This document shows, piece by piece, positions 1,402-23,981 of a stretch of 64,000 bases of DNA. The number at the start of each line of letters is the position of its first letter. Position 1 is the first letter of the stretch. Under the pieces are notes generated by a model that saw only the letters and a list, made by a program, of their open reading frames with translations, did not search any database and had not been told where the DNA came from. The position numbers and the translations under genes were made by a program. The stretch comes from Erysipelotrichaceae bacterium (lineage in GTDB: Bacteria; Bacillota_I; Bacilli_A; Erysipelotrichales; Erysipelotrichaceae), in NCBI GenBank assembly GCA_017515475.1, contig JAFWFS010000005.1, positions 1-64,000 on the forward strand, written 5' to 3'.

Positions 1402-1482
1402 AAATAAATGATTTAGTTTTTCAGAAGCAAATCTCTTTTTGACCGGTGGAAAACCGAACGGGATTAATGTATTATTATAGTT

Positions 1483-1496
1483 AGTTAATGCTAACT
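1483..1496 (+). promoter_or_regulatory. operator-like dyad 1, DtxR/IdeR-type
   Basis: AGTTA-atgc-TAACT is a perfect 5+5 dyad starting 5 bases after a TATTAT -10-like box (1473-1478). It resembles the core of DtxR/IdeR-family boxes (TTAGGTTAG-CTAACCTAA type). An almost identical dyad lies at 20051-20066 ahead of a ZIP/HMA metal cluster carrying the same gene families. The regulator itself is not in the window. Confidence 0.55.
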
Positions 1497-1533: not shown

Positions 1534-1550
1534 AATAAAACAAGATTGAG

Positions 1551-1571
1551 TTAGTCATTACTAATTATAAT
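1551..1571 (+). promoter_or_regulatory. operator-like dyad 2 with -10 box
   Basis: TTAGT-catt-ACTAA (1551-1564) is a second dyad with the same 4-base spacing, touching TATAAT at 1566-1571. Binding here would block the promoter nearest the methyltransferase cluster. Confidence 0.45.
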
Positions 1572-1741: not shown

Positions 1742-2554
1742 ATGAACAGATTTGAAGGTGTTGCCAATACGTTATTTGTACCTCTGGTGGCAAGGATCGC
1801 CATCTCTAAAGAGTTTCCGGAGTATTTTAAAGATGAAAAAGCGCTTGAACTGGAACCGTATCTGCCTGATGATGCAACAAAAGGCTCGTCCCAGTACAGC
1901 AATATCGCCTCGGTAGCGCGATATTACAACATGGACCGGATGGTCATGGCCTTTGCCGAGAAAAATCCGGAATGTAACGTGGTCTATCTCGGTGTAGGTC
2001 TGGAAACGGCTTGCGACCGAATGCAGAAAAAGCTTACTGAAGTCCAATGGTACGAGTGCGATCTGCCGGAAGTCATCGAAGCAAGAAAAAAGGTGTTCGG
2101 ACAGCGTGAAAAGGAATTTCTGATCCCCGGAGACATGTTCAAAATGGAATGGACTAAATGTATTGATTCGTCTTTACCGACGCTTCTGATCGTTTCCGGT
2201 GTATTCCAGTATTTCCATGAAGAAGACATCATCGCCTTTATCGGAAACTGTAAAAAAGTCTTTCCGGATGCGGAGATGATCTTTGATGCGACAAGCAGAT
2301 CCGGTCTGCTGTATACCAACTGGTTCATTAAACGAACCGGCAATAAGAACGCTTTGATGTATTTTGGCATTGATGACAGTAAGGAATTTGCTCAAAAATG
2401 CGAAACGGTTCTGCTTGAAGAAAGAACCTTTTTTCCGGATGCACTGAAGATGATAGGGAAGAAACTGAATCTGATAACCAGGATCTCCATGAAGATAGCG
2501 GAACGAAACAAATCGGTAAAGATCCTTCATCTGAAGCTGACTGATTCTAAGTAA
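1742..2554 (+). CDS. SAM-dependent methyltransferase, LCMT/PPM1-like
   Basis: This 270-residue class I methyltransferase looks like the leucine carboxyl methyltransferase (PPM1/LCMT) group. Features are the SAM-binding motif VYLGVGLET (about 81-89), the acidic strand YECDLPEVIEARK (about 104-116), which is a signature of this group, and a later VSGVFQYF strand. It is clearly paralogous to the gene at 22276; both share an N-terminal TL-x-x-P-L segment followed by a PE-x-F stretch. Substrate is unknown. AGAAAGGA precedes the ATG. Its neighbour 25 bases downstream is an ATC-hydrolase-like protein, and the same pairing recurs at 21.7-23.8 kb. The upstream dyads suggest metal-dependent repression. 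Confidence 0.75.
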   Translation: MNRFEGVANTLFVPLVARIAISKEFPEYFKDEKALELEPYLPDDATKGSSQYSNIASVARYYNMDRMVMAFAEKNPECNVVYLGVGLETACDRMQKKLTEVQWYECDLPEVIEARKKVFGQREKEFLIPGDMFKMEWTKCIDSSLPTLLIVSGVFQYFHEEDIIAFIGNCKKVFPDAEMIFDATSRSGLLYTNWFIKRTGNKNALMYFGIDDSKEFAQKCETVLLEERTFFPDALKMIGKKLNLITRISMKIAERNKSVKILHLKLTDSK

Positions 2555-2579: not shown

Positions 2580-3203
2580 ATGAAACTGGGATTGATGGGA
2601 AGGCTGTTTCCTGTTTTATTAGAGAAAGTCGTTTATGATTACACGGTGTTTGCCGTTAAAGATATAGATATCTGCAAGTTCAAAGAAAGACATTTGAAAG
2701 AATACAAGGCGATGGTTGCCAGAACTCCTTCCATTGGTTCAATGAAAGATAATATGTTTGCACCGGTCATGTATCTGGCTTGCTATGGATTTTCCTATTA
2801 CAGGGCTGATCCGGAACATATCACAATGGAAGTCTTTGGCGGCATGATCGATGCAATCTGCAAAAGCGACATGATGAAGCGTTTTTATCAGGGGAAGAAC
2901 TGTTTCGATCAAAAAGAGATCGACAGATATGTCCGCGGATCGAAGCGTTCCAAGAAACGCGAATATCCGATGGACTGGGTCTTTGATTTTTCATATGACC
3001 TGTCGGTTCCGGAATACTATGTGACACATCATGAATGCGGTGTCTGCAAGATCGGAAAGCAGGAGAATCTGATGTTTCTAACTCCGCATATGTGCGTCAT
3101 GGATTATCCGACAATAGAGTATAAAGGCGGAAAGCTGATACGCACAAAGACACTGGGAAACGGCGATGAATGCTGCGACTTCCATGTAGTGAAAAAGGCT
3201 TGA
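2580..3203 (+). CDS. L-2-amino-thiazoline-4-carboxylate (ATC) hydrolase-family protein
   Basis: The 207-residue protein matches the ATC_hydrolase family by its C-terminal pattern: HHECGVCKIGK, a second Cys in PHMCVMDYP, then TRTKTLGNGDECCDFH. The founding family member opens a thiazoline ring on the way to cysteine in Pseudomonas. Most Bacillota members have no known activity, so that reaction should not be assumed here. The conserved Cys/Asp residues suggest a hydrolytic or metal-binding site. It has a good GGAG RBS and lies between a methyltransferase and an alpha/beta hydrolase in one operon. Two further family members lie at 21677 and 23130. Confidence 0.7.
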   Translation: MKLGLMGRLFPVLLEKVVYDYTVFAVKDIDICKFKERHLKEYKAMVARTPSIGSMKDNMFAPVMYLACYGFSYYRADPEHITMEVFGGMIDAICKSDMMKRFYQGKNCFDQKEIDRYVRGSKRSKKREYPMDWVFDFSYDLSVPEYYVTHHECGVCKIGKQENLMFLTPHMCVMDYPTIEYKGGKLIRTKTLGNGDECCDFHVVKKA

Positions 3204-3219: not shown

Positions 3220-3993
3220 ATGAGAATCTATGAATTCGGCAAAGAAAATCCGGAATGCATCCTGTTGATCCATCCATCGCTGGTGACGTGGGATTATTTT
3301 GAATATGTCATACCGTTGCTGGAGAAGCATTACCATCTGCTGATTCCGGCGCTTCCGGGATACGATTTGAAGGATGATTCGGACTTCAGTTCGGTTGAAG
3401 CGGTCGCTTTGCGGCTTGCCGCTGATCTTGCGGATAGGGGAATTCAGGAAGTGGAGACGATCTATGGCTGTTCCGTGGGAGGAAGTATCGCCCTCAGAAT
3501 GGCAGTGGATGGGAAACTGTCGGCTAAAAACATTGTCATGGACGGAGGGATCACTCCTTATCAGCTGCCTTGGATCCTGACGCGTTTTATCGCCCTTCGC
3601 GATTTTGGGCTCATGGCATTTGGCAAATCCGGAGGGGAAAAACTGATCGTAAAAGCTTTCAGTTCTACGGGGTTCAGTGAGGAGGACATGAAATACGTGG
3701 CCGGAATCTTCCGCCATTGCACATTTAAAACATTATGGAACACTTTCAATTCCTGCAACAACTACAAGATGCCGAAAGAAGTCATGCATCTTCCTTGCAG
3801 GATCTATTACTGGTATGCGGAAAAAGAACGCAAGGCCAGAGACTGGGATATAAAATACATGAAGAAGTATCTGCCGGACACTGTTTTTAGGTGTTTCGAA
3901 GGGATGGATCATGGCGATATGGCACTGTTTCACCCGGAACGGATGGCAAAGGAACTGCACAGATTAAGCCAGAAACCCGAAAACCGAGAATAA
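3220..3993 (+). CDS. alpha/beta hydrolase
   Basis: This 257-residue alpha/beta-hydrolase fold protein has LIHP (about 16-19) as the oxyanion region, the nucleophile elbow GCSVGG with Ser85, and a C-terminal MDHGD with probable catalytic His231. Substrate is unknown. It is the third gene of the methyltransferase/ATC-hydrolase operon, 16 bases after the previous stop codon, and ends just before a terminator at 3995. It may process a methyl ester or thioester made by its neighbours, but that is inference. There is no signal peptide, so it is cytoplasmic. Confidence 0.75.
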   Translation: MRIYEFGKENPECILLIHPSLVTWDYFEYVIPLLEKHYHLLIPALPGYDLKDDSDFSSVEAVALRLAADLADRGIQEVETIYGCSVGGSIALRMAVDGKLSAKNIVMDGGITPYQLPWILTRFIALRDFGLMAFGKSGGEKLIVKAFSSTGFSEEDMKYVAGIFRHCTFKTLWNTFNSCNNYKMPKEVMHLPCRIYYWYAEKERKARDWDIKYMKKYLPDTVFRCFEGMDHGDMALFHPERMAKELHRLSQKPENRE

Positions 3994-9304: not shown

Positions 9305-10984
9305 ATGAGTCAAATAGAAATAATAGAGCATCTGCTGGAACTGACTGCCGGTATTGGCGTCTACCTGATCGCTTTTAAGATGATCAGCGGCAATCTGGAA
9401 GCGGTCAGTTCAGACAGACTGAAAAAAACATTCGCAAAGATCTCCGACAGCAAAATCATCGGTCTTTTTATCGGTATTGTCGCAACCGTTCTGATACAGA
9501 GTTCCAGTGCTGTCACAGTCATGACGATCGGTTTCGTGAATGCCGGTATTCTTTCTCTGACCCAGGCTGCGACGATTGTTTTTGGCGGCGAGATCGGAAC
9601 GACGGTCAGCGGCCAGATCGTCGCCCTGGGACTGTTCAATTCGGAAACGGTCGACCTCAACATCCTGTTTTCTTCGATGGCAGGACTGGGAGTCGTCCTG
9701 TCTTCGCTGGCAAAAACAGACAATCTGAAGAAAACGGGAGAGATCGTCTCCGGTTTTGGCATCCTGTTCATCGGCCTTGGGCTGATGTCTTCTTCGATGC
9801 GTTCCTTTGCGGAACTGGACAGCCTGAAGGTTTTCCTTTCCCGGTTGGACAATGTCGTCTTCCTGACGGCGGCAGGTGCCATCATTACGGCAATCATCCA
9901 TTCTTCCGCGGCTATGACTTCGATCGCGATTACCATGGTTGCGACCGGACTGATCAGCCTGGAACAGGGCATCTATATCACCCTTGGCGCAAACGTGGGA
10001 ACCTGCTTCACGGGAGCGATGGCGGCAATGTCAAGCAACACCAACTCCAAGCGGACCTCCGTGATCCAGATGATCTTCAATACCGGAGGCGTCCTGCTGG
10101 TGCTTCTGATCGATCTATTGATAAAGGGATTAAGCTCAAACGCTCTTTCAATCGGATTTTTGTTTGACCGGATGTTCCCGGGAACGCCGCATTTTCAGCT
10201 GGCGATGTTCCATACGGTATTCAATATTGTCTCCGTTATCATCGTTCTTCCTTTGACCGATCTGCTCGTATCATTATCGAAGAAGATCATTCCGGACAGC
10301 GATGAGGATCTGGAAGGCGAAAGATTCTACTATATCGACGAAAACATGCTGTCGACACCGGCAATCGCCGTTTCTCAGGTCAAGAAAGAGATCATAAACA
10401 TGGCCGGGATCGCCATGGAAAACTTCAACGATTCAATCGCCTCGATCATCGATTTAAAGACCGACAACATCAAGAAGTTCAGAAACAACGAAAAAGAACT
10501 GAACTTCCTGAACCAGGGACTGGTTGAATATGTCGTAAAACTCAGCAGTCTGAGCAACATGAGCCGGAAGGACCATCAGTATCTGAGCTCCACCTACAAG
10601 ACGATTGCGGATATCGAAAGGATTGGCGACTACTCCGAGAATATCATGGAGTATACGGAAAACCTGAAATCATTCAATGAATCACTTTCCGAGGATGCAA
10701 AGGAAGAGGTTAGAGAACTGTCCTCACTGATAAACAAGCTTTATGAACTGACCATGGATGTGTATGAAGACGGAAACAGGGCTACCTTCGTGAAGTCCAT
10801 GAAGATCGAGGAGAAGATTGACGATCTGACGCAGAAGATGGCGAAAAACCACATCAAGAGGCTGGGTAAGAACCAGTGCAGTGTAGAAGCAGGAGCGCAG
10901 TATCTGAAGCTGGCGAGCGATGTAGAGAGGATCGGAGACCATCTCATCAACATCAACGACAGGGATTACGAGGTATCACACTAA
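9305..10984 (+). CDS. Na+/phosphate symporter with PhoU-like C-terminal domain
   Basis: The 559-residue protein has an N-terminal membrane part (about 1-320) with two inverted Na/Pi-cotransporter repeats. The QSS motifs are visible as TVLIQSSSAVTVM and, in the second repeat, AIIHSSAAMTSIAI. The cytoplasmic tail (about 345-555) is PhoU-like, with repeated helices including ERIGDYSENI and ERIGDHLINI. It should import phosphate using the sodium gradient. GGGAGG precedes the ATG. The Pho-like repeat upstream and the adjacent phoBR-like genes fit phosphate-starvation control. A small membrane protein follows after 13 bases. Confidence 0.9.
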   Translation: MSQIEIIEHLLELTAGIGVYLIAFKMISGNLEAVSSDRLKKTFAKISDSKIIGLFIGIVATVLIQSSSAVTVMTIGFVNAGILSLTQAATIVFGGEIGTTVSGQIVALGLFNSETVDLNILFSSMAGLGVVLSSLAKTDNLKKTGEIVSGFGILFIGLGLMSSSMRSFAELDSLKVFLSRLDNVVFLTAAGAIITAIIHSSAAMTSIAITMVATGLISLEQGIYITLGANVGTCFTGAMAAMSSNTNSKRTSVIQMIFNTGGVLLVLLIDLLIKGLSSNALSIGFLFDRMFPGTPHFQLAMFHTVFNIVSVIIVLPLTDLLVSLSKKIIPDSDEDLEGERFYYIDENMLSTPAIAVSQVKKEIINMAGIAMENFNDSIASIIDLKTDNIKKFRNNEKELNFLNQGLVEYVVKLSSLSNMSRKDHQYLSSTYKTIADIERIGDYSENIMEYTENLKSFNESLSEDAKEEVRELSSLINKLYELTMDVYEDGNRATFVKSMKIEEKIDDLTQKMAKNHIKRLGKNQCSVEAGAQYLKLASDVERIGDHLININDRDYEVSH

Positions 10985-19889: not shown

Positions 19890-19982
19890 AATTCTTGTGT
19901 AGATGATTATCCGGCCTGCAAAAGCCTGTGTAAATGCGCAGACGGTCAAGAAATGTGAATTCAGAATAATGTTTATAAAATG

Positions 19983-20035: not shown

Positions 20036-20066
20036 TATAATAGTAGTAGTTAGTTATGGCTAACTA
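20036..20066 (+). promoter_or_regulatory. promoter with DtxR/IdeR-type operator dyad
   Basis: TATAAT (20036-20041; another at 20024-20029) is followed nine bases later by the perfect dyad TAGTTA-tggc-TAACTA (20051-20066), covering the start of transcription. The match to the dyad at 1483-1496 and to DtxR-family boxes, with metal-transport genes directly downstream, supports metal-dependent repression. Confidence 0.65.
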
Positions 20067-20101
20067 CATGGATGGAATACGCTTGTTGTTTAGGAGGTTA
20101 T

Positions 20102-20353
20102 ATGAATAGAGTTGTTTTGAAGATAGACTGCATGGTTTGCGGAATGTGTGAAGCTCATATGAATGATACGGTCAGAAAGGTTCTTCCTGATGCCAGAAAA
20201 CTAAGATCATCCTATAAGAAAGGGGAAACGGAATTCCTGTATGAAGGGGATTTTGATCGAAACAGGCTGATCGATGCGATCAAGGAGACCGGTTATGTCT
20301 GCAGCGATATCGTAATCGAGCCGTATCAGAGGAAAGGACTGTTTGGCAGATGA
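20102..20353 (+). CDS. HMA-type heavy-metal-binding protein
   Basis: The 83-residue protein has a heavy-metal-associated fold with the metal-binding MVCGMCEAH motif (C-x-x-C, about residues 12-15) near the N-terminus and DAIKETGYVCSDI at the end, as in copper-chaperone-like proteins. GGAGG lies before ATG 20102; an upstream in-frame ATG at 20072 lacks an RBS. It overlaps the ZIP transporter gene by 4 bases (ATGA), so the two are coupled. A metal chaperone or sensor role is likely; the metal cannot be told. Confidence 0.8.
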   Translation: MNRVVLKIDCMVCGMCEAHMNDTVRKVLPDARKLRSSYKKGETEFLYEGDFDRNRLIDAIKETGYVCSDIVIEPYQRKGLFGR

Positions 20354-21138
20354 TTCTGAATGAAGAATTGCTGACAGGTTTGCTGATCCCGTTCATCGGA
20401 ACTGCTGCAGGTGCATCCTGTGTCTTTTTTCTGAAAAAAGATCTGAAGGTTTCCGTGCAGAAAGCACTGACCGGCTTTGCGGCGGGCGTTATGGTGGCGG
20501 CTTCGATATGGAGCCTGATCGTACCGGCGATCGAACAGTGCTCCGATAAAGAAAGATGGGCATTTCTGCCTGCCTTCATCGGTTTCTGGTTCGGTATCCT
20601 GTTTCTGCTGCTTCTGGATGAAGTCATTCCGCATCTGCACAGGAGTATCGATCAGGTCGAAGGTCCGCAAAGCAGACTGACCAGAATCGCCATGATGGTT
20701 CTGGCCGTTACATTGCATAACATTCCGGAAGGCATGGCGGTCGGTGTTGTTTATGCCGGACTGATGAACGGTTCGGGCAGTATCACGGCAGGCGGAGCTC
20801 TGGCTCTGTCTCTGGGTATCGCCATACAGAACTTTCCGGAAGGGGCGATCATTTCAATGCCGATGTATGCGGAAGGAAAAAGCAAAATCAAGTCATTCTG
20901 GCTTGGCGTTTTATCCGGAGCGGTAGAACCTTTGTCTGGTGCGCTGACGGTGATCGTTGCCGGTCTTGTCGTACCTGCCATGCCTTATTTCTTATCGTTT
21001 GCTGCAGGAGCGATGCTGTATGTAGTCGTAGAAGAACTGATTCCGGAAATGTCTGCCGGCAGACATTCCAATATCGGCGTAGTATCTTTTGCGATCGGAT
21101 TCAGTCTGATGATGGCACTGGATGTAGCACTGGGTTAA
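20350..21138 (+). CDS. ZIP-family metal transporter
   Basis: The 262-residue membrane protein has about eight hydrophobic segments. Helix IV motif AVTLHNIPEGMAVGVVY and helix V motif ALSLGIAIQNFPEGAIISMPMY carry the conserved His/Asn-Pro-Glu metal-site residues of the ZupT/ZIP group. VVEELIPEM lies near the end. It probably moves Zn, Fe or Mn into the cytoplasm. It is the second gene in the dyad-controlled metal cluster and follows the HMA protein with an ATGA overlap. Confidence 0.9.
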   Translation: MILNEELLTGLLIPFIGTAAGASCVFFLKKDLKVSVQKALTGFAAGVMVAASIWSLIVPAIEQCSDKERWAFLPAFIGFWFGILFLLLLDEVIPHLHRSIDQVEGPQSRLTRIAMMVLAVTLHNIPEGMAVGVVYAGLMNGSGSITAGGALALSLGIAIQNFPEGAIISMPMYAEGKSKIKSFWLGVLSGAVEPLSGALTVIVAGLVVPAMPYFLSFAAGAMLYVVVEELIPEMSAGRHSNIGVVSFAIGFSLMMALDVALG

Positions 21139-21150
21139 GGAGAAATCGGC

Positions 21151-21642
21151 ATGAAAACAACGATACTTCTTGCGTTATTATCGATGGCTGCGCTGTTTCT
21201 GCTGCTGTATGCGGCTGTCGCCCTGATTCAGGACAGGCATTTTTTCACGACGGCGCCAAAGGATATTCAGGAAGCCGTACAGGAACACGAGGAGCGTTTT
21301 CCATATCAGAGGATCTTAGGCTGGAAGCTGGCGTTCATCGCTTTTTTGATGTTCGGCTTCGTGTTTATCTATGCCGGCTATGACGGGATTCAAAACGGTT
21401 ATGGTTTTGGCTGTTTCTTCATCCGCTATCTTACGATCCTTTATCTGCTTAAGGCTTTTGATATACTGTTCTTTGACTATTACCTATTAACGAAATCGCA
21501 TTTCTTTCAGCATTATTATCCGGAAACAAAGGAATGTCAAGGATATCATAATTTCGGTTTCAACAGGAAGGAACAGCTGACCAGGCTGATCCTGTTCCCG
21601 TTTGCTGCCATGGCTATGGCATTTATATGTACTTTGTTTTGA
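21151..21642 (+). CDS. membrane protein, unknown
   Basis: The 163-residue protein has about four membrane segments (residues 4-26, 58-78, 88-110 and 142-163) and a loop with HHF-like and YYPETKECQGYHNFG aromatic/His residues. TAAGGAG precedes the ATG, and it lies 12 bases after the ZIP gene. No family is recognised. Its place inside a metal-regulated operon suggests a membrane partner of either the transporter or the following methyltransferase/ATC-hydrolase pair. Confidence 0.65.
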   Translation: MKTTILLALLSMAALFLLLYAAVALIQDRHFFTTAPKDIQEAVQEHEERFPYQRILGWKLAFIAFLMFGFVFIYAGYDGIQNGYGFGCFFIRYLTILYLLKAFDILFFDYYLLTKSHFFQHYYPETKECQGYHNFGFNRKEQLTRLILFPFAAMAMAFICTLF

Positions 21643-21654
21643 TAGGAGGTCATT

Positions 21655-21684
21655 ATGGCAAAGAAGGAGAATAGAAATGGATAA
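21655..21684 (+). CDS. nine-codon upstream ORF
   Basis: A strong AGGAGG RBS precedes ATG 21655, which reads MAKKENRNG and stops at TAA 21682-21684. The stop codon overlaps the next gene, whose ATG is 21677. This arrangement could couple translation of the ATC-hydrolase-like gene to the mini-ORF. It may also be chance. Confidence 0.35.
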   Translation: MAKKENRNG

Positions 21685-22279
21685 GCGTGTCGGAAAGTAC
21701 GCAAAACTCTATTACAGTGCGCTTACGGGAATGGATTTTTCCGATGCCGGAGCTATGAAAGAAAAATACGAGGAACGGCTGCAGAAGATGTATGATTCGC
21801 CTGTCTTCAAGGTTCATGACATCTATCCGACCATGAATGTCTCTCTGATCTATGCGGTCATTGCCATGTGTCTGGAATTAAAGGAGAAGGGCATGAACGA
21901 TAAGGAGATCATGGATTTCTCGGATCTGGTTTTCCGGAAACGGAAGAGGACTTTTGCGATGTTGGAGAGAGCCATCGACACCCTGCCGGATGCCTACAGG
22001 ATCGCTGAAAAATGGAACATCAGCGATCATGAAAAGAGAGTGAAAGACGGCAGTATCACCTATGATCGCTTTAATGTCAAAGACGGCAGAATCGAGTATT
22101 CCATCAGCCGCTGCATGTATGTGAATATGTTTGAATATTACGGGATTAGATCTTTGTGCAAGATCTTCTGCAACACTGATATCTCTGCCTACCGTCAGCT
22201 GAAGCGCCATGTGAAGTTCACGCGTTATTCCGATCTGTCTGACGGCGAATGCTGCCATGATGTCATAGAAAGAAGGTGA
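21677..22279 (+). CDS. ATC-hydrolase-family protein (paralogue 2)
   Basis: The 200-residue protein is related to the gene at 2580. It has a helical N-terminal half (MNVSLIYAVIAMCLELKEKGMNDKEI) and the C-terminal Cys-rich half (SRCMYVNMFEYYGIRSLCKIFCNTD, ending RYSDLSDGECCHDV). The Cys, Asp and ECC-x-D pattern is shared. AAGGAGA precedes ATG 21677; earlier in-frame starts fall inside the previous gene. It overlaps the methyltransferase by 4 bases. Activity is unknown. Confidence 0.65.
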   Translation: MDKRVGKYAKLYYSALTGMDFSDAGAMKEKYEERLQKMYDSPVFKVHDIYPTMNVSLIYAVIAMCLELKEKGMNDKEIMDFSDLVFRKRKRTFAMLERAIDTLPDAYRIAEKWNISDHEKRVKDGSITYDRFNVKDGRIEYSISRCMYVNMFEYYGIRSLCKIFCNTDISAYRQLKRHVKFTRYSDLSDGECCHDVIERR

Positions 22280-23133
22280 AGACTACGGGAAAGTATCATA
22301 TCGAAAAGAATACGGTACAGGAGACTTTGGTCATTCCGCTTTATGGAAGGAAAGTCTGTGCCGATCATTATCCTGAACTGTTTATGGATAAAGAAGCCGA
22401 AAGGATCTGTGAGATGCTGGACTACGATTTCGCGTCGAAAAAGAAGATCATGGAATCTCCGGCAGGACTTTTCGGTGCTCTGGAAGTGGCGCAGCGTCAT
22501 TACGACCTTCTTTGCGAGATCAGTGATTATCTTAAAGTGTACCCGGAAGCGGCGGTGGTGAATCTTGGCTGCGGTCTGGATGATTCTTTCCATAAGGCGG
22601 ATAACGGTCTGTGCCGCGGTTATAATATCGATCTGCCTGAGGTTATTGAAATCAGGAATGAACTGCTGGGAGCAACGGAAAGGGAAGTAAACATCAGTTT
22701 TGATCTGAATGATCATGCCTGGATGAATCTGATCGACGGCAGAAAGGGAGCGATCTTTTTTGCGGCGGGTGTTTTCTATTATTTTCAAAGAGAAGAGATC
22801 AAAAAGCTGTTTAAGAAAATGGCGGAAAGCTTCCCGGAAGGAGTACTGGTCTTTGACTGCTGCAATGAGCTGGGTGCGAAAATGATGCGTAAGACCTGGC
22901 TAAAAGAAGCCGGAATCAGCGATGTTTCCGCTTATTTTTCTTTGAAAGACAAATCGGAAATCGAAGGATGGAGTAATCGTTTTAAAAGAGTCAGCGAAAG
23001 AAGCTACATGAGAGGCTATCGGGACATCTATCATGATGTCGGTTTTTTCCATAAGCTGATGCTGGTATTCTGCGACAGGCTGGTCAGAATGAAAATAATC
23101 AGGATAGAATTCGGAAAGGAGGAAAGGGGATGA
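22276..23133 (+). CDS. SAM-dependent methyltransferase, LCMT/PPM1-like (paralogue 2)
   Basis: The 285-residue protein starts at GTG 22276, overlapping the previous stop codon. The SAM motif VVNLGCGLDDSF (about 94-105), NIDLPEVIEIRNEL (about 117-130) and FAAGVFYYF match the same features of the gene at 1742. Both begin with a TL-x-x-PL-x-x-R segment and PE-L/Y-F. The group methylates carboxyl or hydroxyl groups; the substrate is unknown. It is flanked on both sides by ATC-hydrolase-like genes, with overlaps, so the three proteins are probably made together. Confidence 0.75.
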   Translation: MKTTGKYHIEKNTVQETLVIPLYGRKVCADHYPELFMDKEAERICEMLDYDFASKKKIMESPAGLFGALEVAQRHYDLLCEISDYLKVYPEAAVVNLGCGLDDSFHKADNGLCRGYNIDLPEVIEIRNELLGATEREVNISFDLNDHAWMNLIDGRKGAIFFAAGVFYYFQREEIKKLFKKMAESFPEGVLVFDCCNELGAKMMRKTWLKEAGISDVSAYFSLKDKSEIEGWSNRFKRVSERSYMRGYRDIYHDVGFFHKLMLVFCDRLVRMKIIRIEFGKEERG

Positions 23134-23771
23134 GGTATGTCGGTATGCCTATGGGCATGTGGATATTGTTTCAGAATTCGTTTCGGGATAATCTGACGGA
23201 TGTACTGAAGTACAGCAAGAAAGAAGCGGCGGAAATTGCCGGCAAGGCAAAGAAAGAGTATAAAAGGATCGTTGTCGGTCTTCCGGAATTTGAAAAGAAA
23301 GACAGATTCAAAATGAATATTCTTTCCTGTGCAATGTTGTGCGCTTTTATTCTGAATCTAAAAGAAAAAACGACAGTGAAGCAGATGAGCGAGTATTATG
23401 AATCGGCAATGATGACAGAAACAATGAAGTGGTTCTGCAGGAAAATGGGGAAAAGGAAATTCACTGATGCGGACATCAGGGGAATGAAGCAGACTGCTGC
23501 ATTCAAAGCGGCTGACCGTAATCCTTATTCCTGGAACATGGACTTTTTTCCTTATGAAGACGGGTCCGGTTATGAGGCCAGATTCTATAAATGCGGAATC
23601 TGTACTCTGATGAAGGAACTTGGCTTAAGCGAGTATACTCCTGCCATGTGCCATCTGGATTATGCGATGAGCGATGCCGGAGGGACTTCTGATTTTATCC
23701 GGGAATATACATTGGCATCCGGGGGTCCCTACTGTGACTGCGGATATAGAAAAAAGCATAAGCATTCGTGA
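23130..23771 (+). CDS. ATC-hydrolase-family protein (paralogue 3)
   Basis: The 213-residue protein overlaps the methyltransferase by 4 bases (ATGA). The helical N-terminus contains SCAMLCAFILNL. The C-terminus shows the family pattern: FYKCGICTLMKELG, TPAMCHLDYAMSD, then PYCDCGYRKKHKHS. The His/Lys-rich last residues (KKHKHS) could add metal binding. The family name implies thiazoline hydrolysis, but the reaction is untested for this branch. It ends the metal-regulated operon; a terminator follows at 23842. Confidence 0.65.
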   Translation: MRYVGMPMGMWILFQNSFRDNLTDVLKYSKKEAAEIAGKAKKEYKRIVVGLPEFEKKDRFKMNILSCAMLCAFILNLKEKTTVKQMSEYYESAMMTETMKWFCRKMGKRKFTDADIRGMKQTAAFKAADRNPYSWNMDFFPYEDGSGYEARFYKCGICTLMKELGLSEYTPAMCHLDYAMSDAGGTSDFIREYTLASGGPYCDCGYRKKHKHS

Positions 23772-23841: not shown

Positions 23842-23870
23842 GGATCTGTTTCAATAGACAGATTCTTTTT
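23842..23870 (+). terminator. intrinsic terminator, dispersed GGATCT family
   Basis: GGATCTGT (23842-23849) pairs with ACAGATTC (23858-23865, one G-T pair), followed by five T. Confidence 0.65.
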
Positions 23871-23981
23871 GTATTTACGTTATCTGTTTTCAAGAAATAA
23901 GCCATTTCTGTATAATGAATATATAGGTTTTTCGTACAAACAATAGTCAAATTATATGATTTCATACAAAAAGGAGGATTC

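Follow-up and report, generated by a model that had tools for sequence, protein, structure and literature searches.

Metal-linked, reshuffled gene clusters of ruminant-gut bacteria pairing LCMT-like methyltransferases with PF14196 proteins: possible metallophore loci

A 64,000-nucleotide stretch of an Erysipelotrichaceae contig, hereafter the window, contains a gene for an LCMT-like methyltransferase set between two genes for proteins of PF14196, the Pfam family known as ATC hydrolase. What these proteins might do together is the question raised by this locus. An earlier note on the same DNA regarded the methyltransferase and its ATC partners as a system in itself and proposed that they jointly make or modify a thiol- or thiazoline-containing small molecule tied to metal supply. 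Of the papers retrieved in a literature search, a single one mentions PF14196 by name, and a description of this gene cluster was found in none.

The reported arrangement was verified by reading of the open reading frames and by Pfam searches. ATC1 (21677..22279, + strand), a divergent PF14196 protein with the weakest match of the three in the window (2e-11), overlaps the LCMT-like SAM methyltransferase (22276..23133, +; PF04072, 1e-8) by GTGA, and the latter overlaps ATC2 (23130..23771, +; PF14196, 4e-22) by ATGA. These genes form the distal half of an operon on one strand (20072-23771), which is opened by three genes unreported earlier. The first encodes an HMA/CopZ-like metallochaperone with a CxxC motif (20072..20353, +); its NCBIfam CopZ/MerP-like matches were below cut-off, its homologue in a related locus (L032) matched PF00403 above cut-off, and its likely start is the ATG at 20102, following AGGAGG. 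The second encodes a ZIP-family (ZupT-like) divalent metal transporter (20350..21138, +) that matched PF02535 (3e-21) and the ZupT model NF003243 (4e-34, yet under the equivalog cut-off). The third encodes a 163-aa membrane protein of a family termed TM7 (21151..21642, +), in which D104 and D109 are invariant in the alignment. A Pfam search of the TM7 protein gave nothing above cut-off, and its confident AF2 model (pLDDT 90) had no fold match in the PDB. TM6 and TM7 are related families of 160-170-aa membrane proteins that are frequent in the clusters described below (e.g. L030:5571-6065), share the invariant aspartates, and both lack a Pfam match above cut-off and a PDB fold match.

Terminator-like hairpins precede the main operon (at 19982) and stand at its end (23842..23872, +; a consensus match only). 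Direct reading of the sequence revealed a -10-like hexamer, TATAAT (20036..20041, +), within TGTTATATAAT; it is absent from the full sigma-70 sites of the promoter scanner. Downstream of it lies the palindrome GTTAG-TTATGG-CTAAC (20049..20064).

A second copy of the methyltransferase-PF14196 set, accompanied by an alpha/beta hydrolase, had also been noted and was verified by Pfam. It comprises a second LCMT-like methyltransferase (1742..2554, +; PF04072, 2e-7), a PF14196 protein (2580..3203, +; 7e-22), and the alpha/beta hydrolase (3220..3993, +; Abhydrolase_6, PF12697, 2e-14, above the gathering cut-off). An exact copy of the palindrome, GTTAGTTAATGCTAAC, is located upstream at 1480..1495, and a sequence scan detected a further copy with one mismatch, GTTAGTCATTACTAAT, at 1550..1565, adjoining TTATAAT. 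Between the two copies, the leader contains a strong hairpin at 1510-1533 (TGCCTCAC...GTGAGGCA) and has a better fold than the majority of its shuffled versions (z = -2.3); this hairpin is possibly an attenuator or a terminator of the first promoter.

The genome to which the window belongs is a 1.3-Mb draft, 90.5% complete. Of its five PF14196 genes, three are located in the two operons, as are both of its two LCM genes. A solo short PF14196 gene beside the ribosomal protein L21/L27 genes (L001:1486-1986) looks like a member of a separate, non-cluster subfamily. The ZIP gene of the main operon is the sole match to the cluster ZIP family in the assembled part of the genome, in which neither FeoB nor a DtxR-family gene was found; given this sole match and the missing FeoB, the species may rely on the ZIP protein as a main importer of divalent metals.

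Both methyltransferases matched the LCM domain (PF04072) above its cut-off of 22.3 bits, with 35.5 bits for the first and 31.7 bits for the second, and share 24% identity with each other. The first matched TIGR00027 at 2e-9, far below the cut-off, and the LCMT sequence profile matched LCMT1/PPM1 structures (4e-7). The SAM-binding motif G-x-GL...D was invariant in the methyltransferase alignment. The DLPEVIE signature that the earlier note had emphasized was present in both window enzymes, but only its D and V-I are kept family-wide. Characterized LCMT enzymes methylate carboxyls.

Subsequently, the co-occurrence of the two families was surveyed. In 61 related genomes, PF14196 genes lay within 6 kb of 19 of the 41 LCMT loci, compared with 0.73 expected, all on the same strand as the LCMT gene. 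In 150 genomes of Lachnospiraceae, the family of Butyrivibrio sp. FCS014, six of 38 LCMT genes had a PF14196 neighbour (0.15 expected). The families thus pair widely, and the objection foreseen in the earlier note, that they might not co-occur outside this genome, falls away.

When named genomes were scanned with the alignment of the methyltransferases, 502 relatives were obtained, from which the best 80 (67-99% identity) were taken. The hosts of these 80 are overwhelmingly ruminant metagenome-assembled genomes (MAGs) and isolates, comprising Erysipelotrichaceae/Solobacterium, Lachnospiraceae (including two Butyrivibrio isolates), Oscillospiraceae/Ruminococcaceae, and one Sphaerochaetaceae MAG. 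The closest relative at this locus among the named loci was a cattle-duodenum MAG of the Erysipelotrichaceae (L048). The window bacterium lives in the gut, probably that of a ruminant. In the methyltransferase tree, well-supported branches by themselves required six or more switches between Erysipelotrichia and other hosts, where MAG names depend on binning quality and one row (L028) was assigned to the wrong group. These switches indicate that the methyltransferase gene moves horizontally. A plasmid origin was rejected, as the PF14196 protein was not found on plasmids and LCMT relatives there had 32% identity or less; so was a phage origin, as viral contigs carried only lone LCMT relatives (29-41% identity) with no PF14196-profile matches beside them. 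On five of these contigs (L128-L132, about 9990-10830), the lone relative (40-41% identity) lies on the strand opposite to its neighbours, which resemble late genes of phages, perhaps those for terminase and portal, so that it looks like a phage moron; on another (L133), a more distant LCMT adjoins a second methyltransferase.

The gene content around the LCMT genes was then analysed in the 80 named loci. Clustering of the neighbours yielded about 18 recurring families in the LCMT operons, among them PF14196 subfamily N1 (45 of the 80 operons), the alpha/beta hydrolase family found in the second window cluster (31), HMA (30), ZIP (28), three Methyltransf_11 families (26, 14, and 14), the metallo-beta-lactamase fold (26), the two small membrane families (18 and 16), and an ApbA-like reductase (12). 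Other PF14196 subfamilies, DUF6796, a pair of ABC half-transporters, and DUF6110 together with a P1B-ATPase were further members. The gene order was scrambled, with 397 adjacencies falling into 147 distinct ordered pairs at a median gap of 4 bp. Hence, the methyltransferase-plus-ATC pair is not the unit that it had been taken for; the unit is a variable operon drawn from about 18 families.

A metal gene was present in 43 of the 80 LCMT operons. When only loci with full flanks were considered, 28 of 31 had a metal gene, a count that includes DUF3793 and DUF6110, which are metal-associated by context only, and 26 of 31 had a PF14196 gene. FeoB and the P1B-ATPase lie amid the cluster genes in Butyrivibrio sp. 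FCS014. The ABC half-transporter pair adjoins a Trep_Strep/MptD ECF S component in four loci (L140:1-4561, L082, L103, and L117), with EcfT and EcfA also beside them in L140; in some loci these ABC-ECF genes, which resemble metallophore import or export genes, have the palindrome described below in front. Taken together, the two operons very probably belong to a real, horizontally spread gene cluster linked to metals. The tie to metal supply, which had been suggested earlier, was strengthened by the HMA, ZIP, P1B-ATPase, FeoB, and DtxR neighbours and by a common operator with the geometry of a DtxR box.

This operator, GTTAG-N6-CTAAC, is common to the clusters and is newly described here. The 80 named loci contained 94 copies of it, whereas no other permutation of the half-site with this spacer exceeded three copies, and GTTAG ranked first of the 1024 half-sites at N6 spacing. 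It was found upstream of 29 of 66 LCMT operons and 12 of 43 other cluster operons (41/109 together) versus 15 of 301 other operons (cluster versus others, Fisher p = 3e-15); metal/ABC/TetR operons had it in 11 of 40 cases, and 56% of the LCMT operons were without an exact copy in the 300 bp scored. In the relatives, a -10-like hexamer lay no more than 25 bp upstream of 62 of 97 sites, compared with 48 of 464 control places, and the operator overlaps promoters. Twelve loci outside the motif discovery contained 14 more exact sites. In the genome of the window, read as stretches totalling 1.295 Mb, exactly two exact copies were present, one upstream of each operon.

In the relatives, the operator also precedes FeoB, DtxR-family genes, and DUF2325-DUF3793, DUF6110-P1B, and TetR-ABC operons. 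Tandem copies at the DUF2325-DUF3793 operons of four loci (L115, L123, L124, and L093) place these in the same apparent metal regulon. DtxR-family genes lie within or adjoin the clusters, some divergently, in six loci (L059, L082, L086, L103, L104, and L107). The minimal, single-dimer IdeR/DtxR box is TTAGGNNNNCCTAA, that is, TTAG-N6-CTAA (PMC8464063). From these observations, the cluster is likely to be metal-regulated, and on balance a DtxR-type repressor appears to be responsible. A metal riboswitch was rejected, since none was found in the window or in seven loci, where only a TPP riboswitch (L080) and tRNAs were detected.

We next consider the PF14196 proteins. Those in the window scored 45 (ATC1), 80 (ATC2), and 79 bits (second cluster) against a gathering cut-off of 28.1 bits. 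Their Cys/Asp signature, given earlier as Cys...Cys-Asp...Cys-x-Asp, is indeed conserved, although its exact form is C-x18-C-x2-D...C-(C/D). Among 60 relatives (ATC2 numbering), C155, C174, and D177 were invariant and C202/D203 were kept in at least 90%. A sequence search among solved structures gave no match for PF14196. When the AF2 model of ATC2 (pLDDT 95) was compared with the PDB using Foldseek, the leading matches were H-NOX, TRAPPC3/Bet3, and the phenol-sensor domains of MopR, PoxR, and DmpR, with probability up to 1.00 and modest scores (E 2e-3 to 0.08, TM 0.2-0.46); a search of a viral structure library gave no match. A V4R/H-NOX/Bet3-type fold is predicted from this model for the PF14196 proteins here, and a relation of PF14196 to V4R and HNOB was published earlier, as noted for MetOD1 (PMC5847659). 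In V4R domains of the MopR type, a structural zinc is held by three Cys and one Glu (PMC10715001). As the V4R Cys/acid cluster binds zinc, the PF14196 signature is more likely to represent a metal site than to prove thiazoline hydrolysis.

What molecule, then, could the cluster act on? Thiazolines are usually made by NRPS condensation/cyclization domains or by YcaO. In the eight cluster genomes searched, YcaO was found in none, and an NRPS condensation domain was found in none of six, including the genome of the window; the other two (G031 and G388) gave condensation-domain matches. ALAD was absent from all eight, whereas 11 of 14 controls were positive. Given these absences, a de novo tetrapyrrole was rejected as the product in the eight genomes, as was a thiazoline made by NRPS or YcaO in the assembled genome of the window, about 10% of which is missing. 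The cluster has no visible enzyme that would build a scaffold.

Our best explanation, which we advance tentatively, is that both operons are small versions of a horizontally spread and reshuffled cluster of ruminant-gut Bacillota that is induced by metal starvation and whose product is most plausibly a metallophore or metal ligand. In this reading, GTTAG-N6-CTAAC would be bound over the promoter by a repressor that depends on metal, most likely one of the DtxR/MntR type, and scarcity of iron (or manganese) would switch the operon on. The ZIP transporter and the HMA protein would take up a divalent metal and hand it on, and the LCMT-like enzyme would tailor one small molecule, presumably by methylation. 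In other genomes, further enzymes might tailor the same molecule, namely as many as three Methyltransf_11 enzymes, alpha/beta hydrolases of two kinds, a hydrolase of the metallo-beta-lactamase fold, and an ApbA-type reductase. The PF14196 proteins, as putative V4R-fold, zinc-site proteins, would bind or process that molecule and would not be thiazoline hydrolases. Most plausibly the molecule would serve metal acquisition, either as a non-NRPS metallophore or as a modified metal ligand; a metallophore product is plausible. It is possible, if doubtful, that the clusters represent a new metallophore or metal-handling class that works without NRPS, PKS, or YcaO and in which a DtxR-type repressor controls a combinatorial, horizontally traded set of methyltransferases, hydrolases, and PF14196 proteins of the V4R fold. 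If so, the bacteria of the ruminant gut would each produce a variant of their own and compete for iron or manganese in an arms race.

Alternatively, the cluster might capture and process metal-organic compounds of the rumen and make no metallophore of its own, which we regard as unlikely; this reading and the metal-stress response considered next are the chief rivals. The compounds would be nicotianamine or phytosiderophores of plants, haem or tetrapyrroles derived from chlorophyll, or siderophores of other microbes; the hydrolases and methyltransferases would modify them, the V4R-fold proteins would bind them, and the ZIP, ABC, and ECF transporters would import the metal or the complex. Such a role would suit the ruminant origin of the hosts, the predominance of esterase-type hydrolases with no visible backbone enzyme, and the binding of haem, aromatics, or acyl chains by V4R-fold relatives. 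The PF14196 gene tolI, moreover, belongs to the cluster for tolyporphin, a tetrapyrrole (PMC8401325), and the ABC pair and a Trep_Strep-type ECF importer occur in or near the clusters, sometimes with the same operator. However, the ABC pair and the ECF importer are both missing from the window operons, no tetrapyrrole gene is clustered, and three or four methyltransferase families suit synthesis more than catabolism.

It is also rather improbable that the cluster serves a metal-stress response, such as remodelling of membrane lipids or a cofactor or production of a signal, in which the metal genes would be co-regulated without being pathway partners. Common operators can join unrelated pathways in one regulon, and the TM6, TM7, and DUF6796 membrane families are frequent members; nevertheless, the operons are tight (median gap as given above) and their members travel together between families.

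Detoxification of a metal or metalloid, with methylation by Methyltransf_11/TehB-like enzymes and handling by the Cys-rich PF14196 proteins, HMA, and P1B-ATPase, is very unlikely. Genes for ArsR, MerR, ArsM, MerA, and MerB were not identified, a ZIP importer together with a DtxR-type box indicates scarcity and not excess, and the carboxyl specificity of characterized LCMT enzymes also counts against it, despite the presence of HMA, P1B-ATPase, and three-Cys sites and a sub-threshold TehB similarity in one methyltransferase.

The Pfam name, the Cys/Asp conservation, and the metal context would agree with the earlier version, in which the PF14196 proteins hydrolyse thiazoline during synthesis of a thiazoline metallophore. 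This version is highly improbable, because the predicted fold and the conserved residues suit a putative zinc site of the V4R kind and the assembled genome contains neither the NRPS condensation/cyclization domains nor YcaO; the thiol/thiazoline part of the proposal was thus not sustained. Finally, the strong shuffling of gene order and the GTT/AAC within attC core sites would agree with the palindrome being an integron attC-like recombination site that causes the shuffling, but this is scarcely credible and was rejected. Of 107 distinct sites, 76 precede the start of a gene or operon and only 21 fall at close gene junctions, and 62 of 97 have the -10-like hexamer within 25 bp. The GTT...AAC order is reversed relative to attC, and FeoB and DtxR genes also have sites in front of them.

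For the preferred reading of a metal-starvation-induced cluster, the operator supplies a testable expression condition. It also puts the PF14196 subfamilies, DUF6796, DUF6110, DUF3793, DUF2325, and the two small membrane families in one metal-linked context, and the label "thiazoline hydrolase" on many gut genes would be corrected as misleading. To our knowledge, such molecules are not known as products of ruminant-gut bacteria. Standard cluster finders would probably miss these clusters, since they seek backbone enzymes, which are absent here.

Compared with known systems, the window methyltransferases share the LCM Pfam domain with LCMT1/PPM1 and the bacterial TIGR00027 methyltransferases and match LCMT1 structures by profile, but they are far under the TIGR00027 cut-off, and PP2A is impossible as a target here. 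Like the Pseudomonas ATC hydrolase, the PF14196 proteins exceed the Pfam cut-off and have conserved Cys and Asp; they differ in forming several paralogous subfamilies in metal-linked operons, with no thiazoline-making machinery found. With the V4R/H-NOX/Bet3 proteins (MopR, PoxR, DmpR, BchJ, and MetOD1), they share the predicted fold and three conserved Cys plus an acid. Unlike the V4R sensors, however, they are free-standing, lack a DNA-binding domain, and have a helical N-terminal half, and their Cys spacing is 19/28 compared with the classical 26/8. The operator resembles IdeR/DtxR regulons in the TTAG-N6-CTAA core geometry and in its position before FeoB and DtxR-family genes in relatives, whereas its outer bases are G/C (GTTAG...CTAAC), its inner bases are relaxed, and the regulon in the genome of the window consists of these two operons only. 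As in the equibactin and yersiniabactin loci (with DtxR-like EqbA, ABC importers, and a YbtPQ-like pair), a DtxR-type regulator and an ABC pair or importers occur in the clusters, and methyl transfer and hydrolases are combined in one mobile locus that is iron-regulated or, here, probably metal-regulated (PMC3672683); the clusters described here differ from those loci in lacking NRPS/PKS, in their variable content and order, and in the addition of HMA, ZIP, and PF14196 genes.
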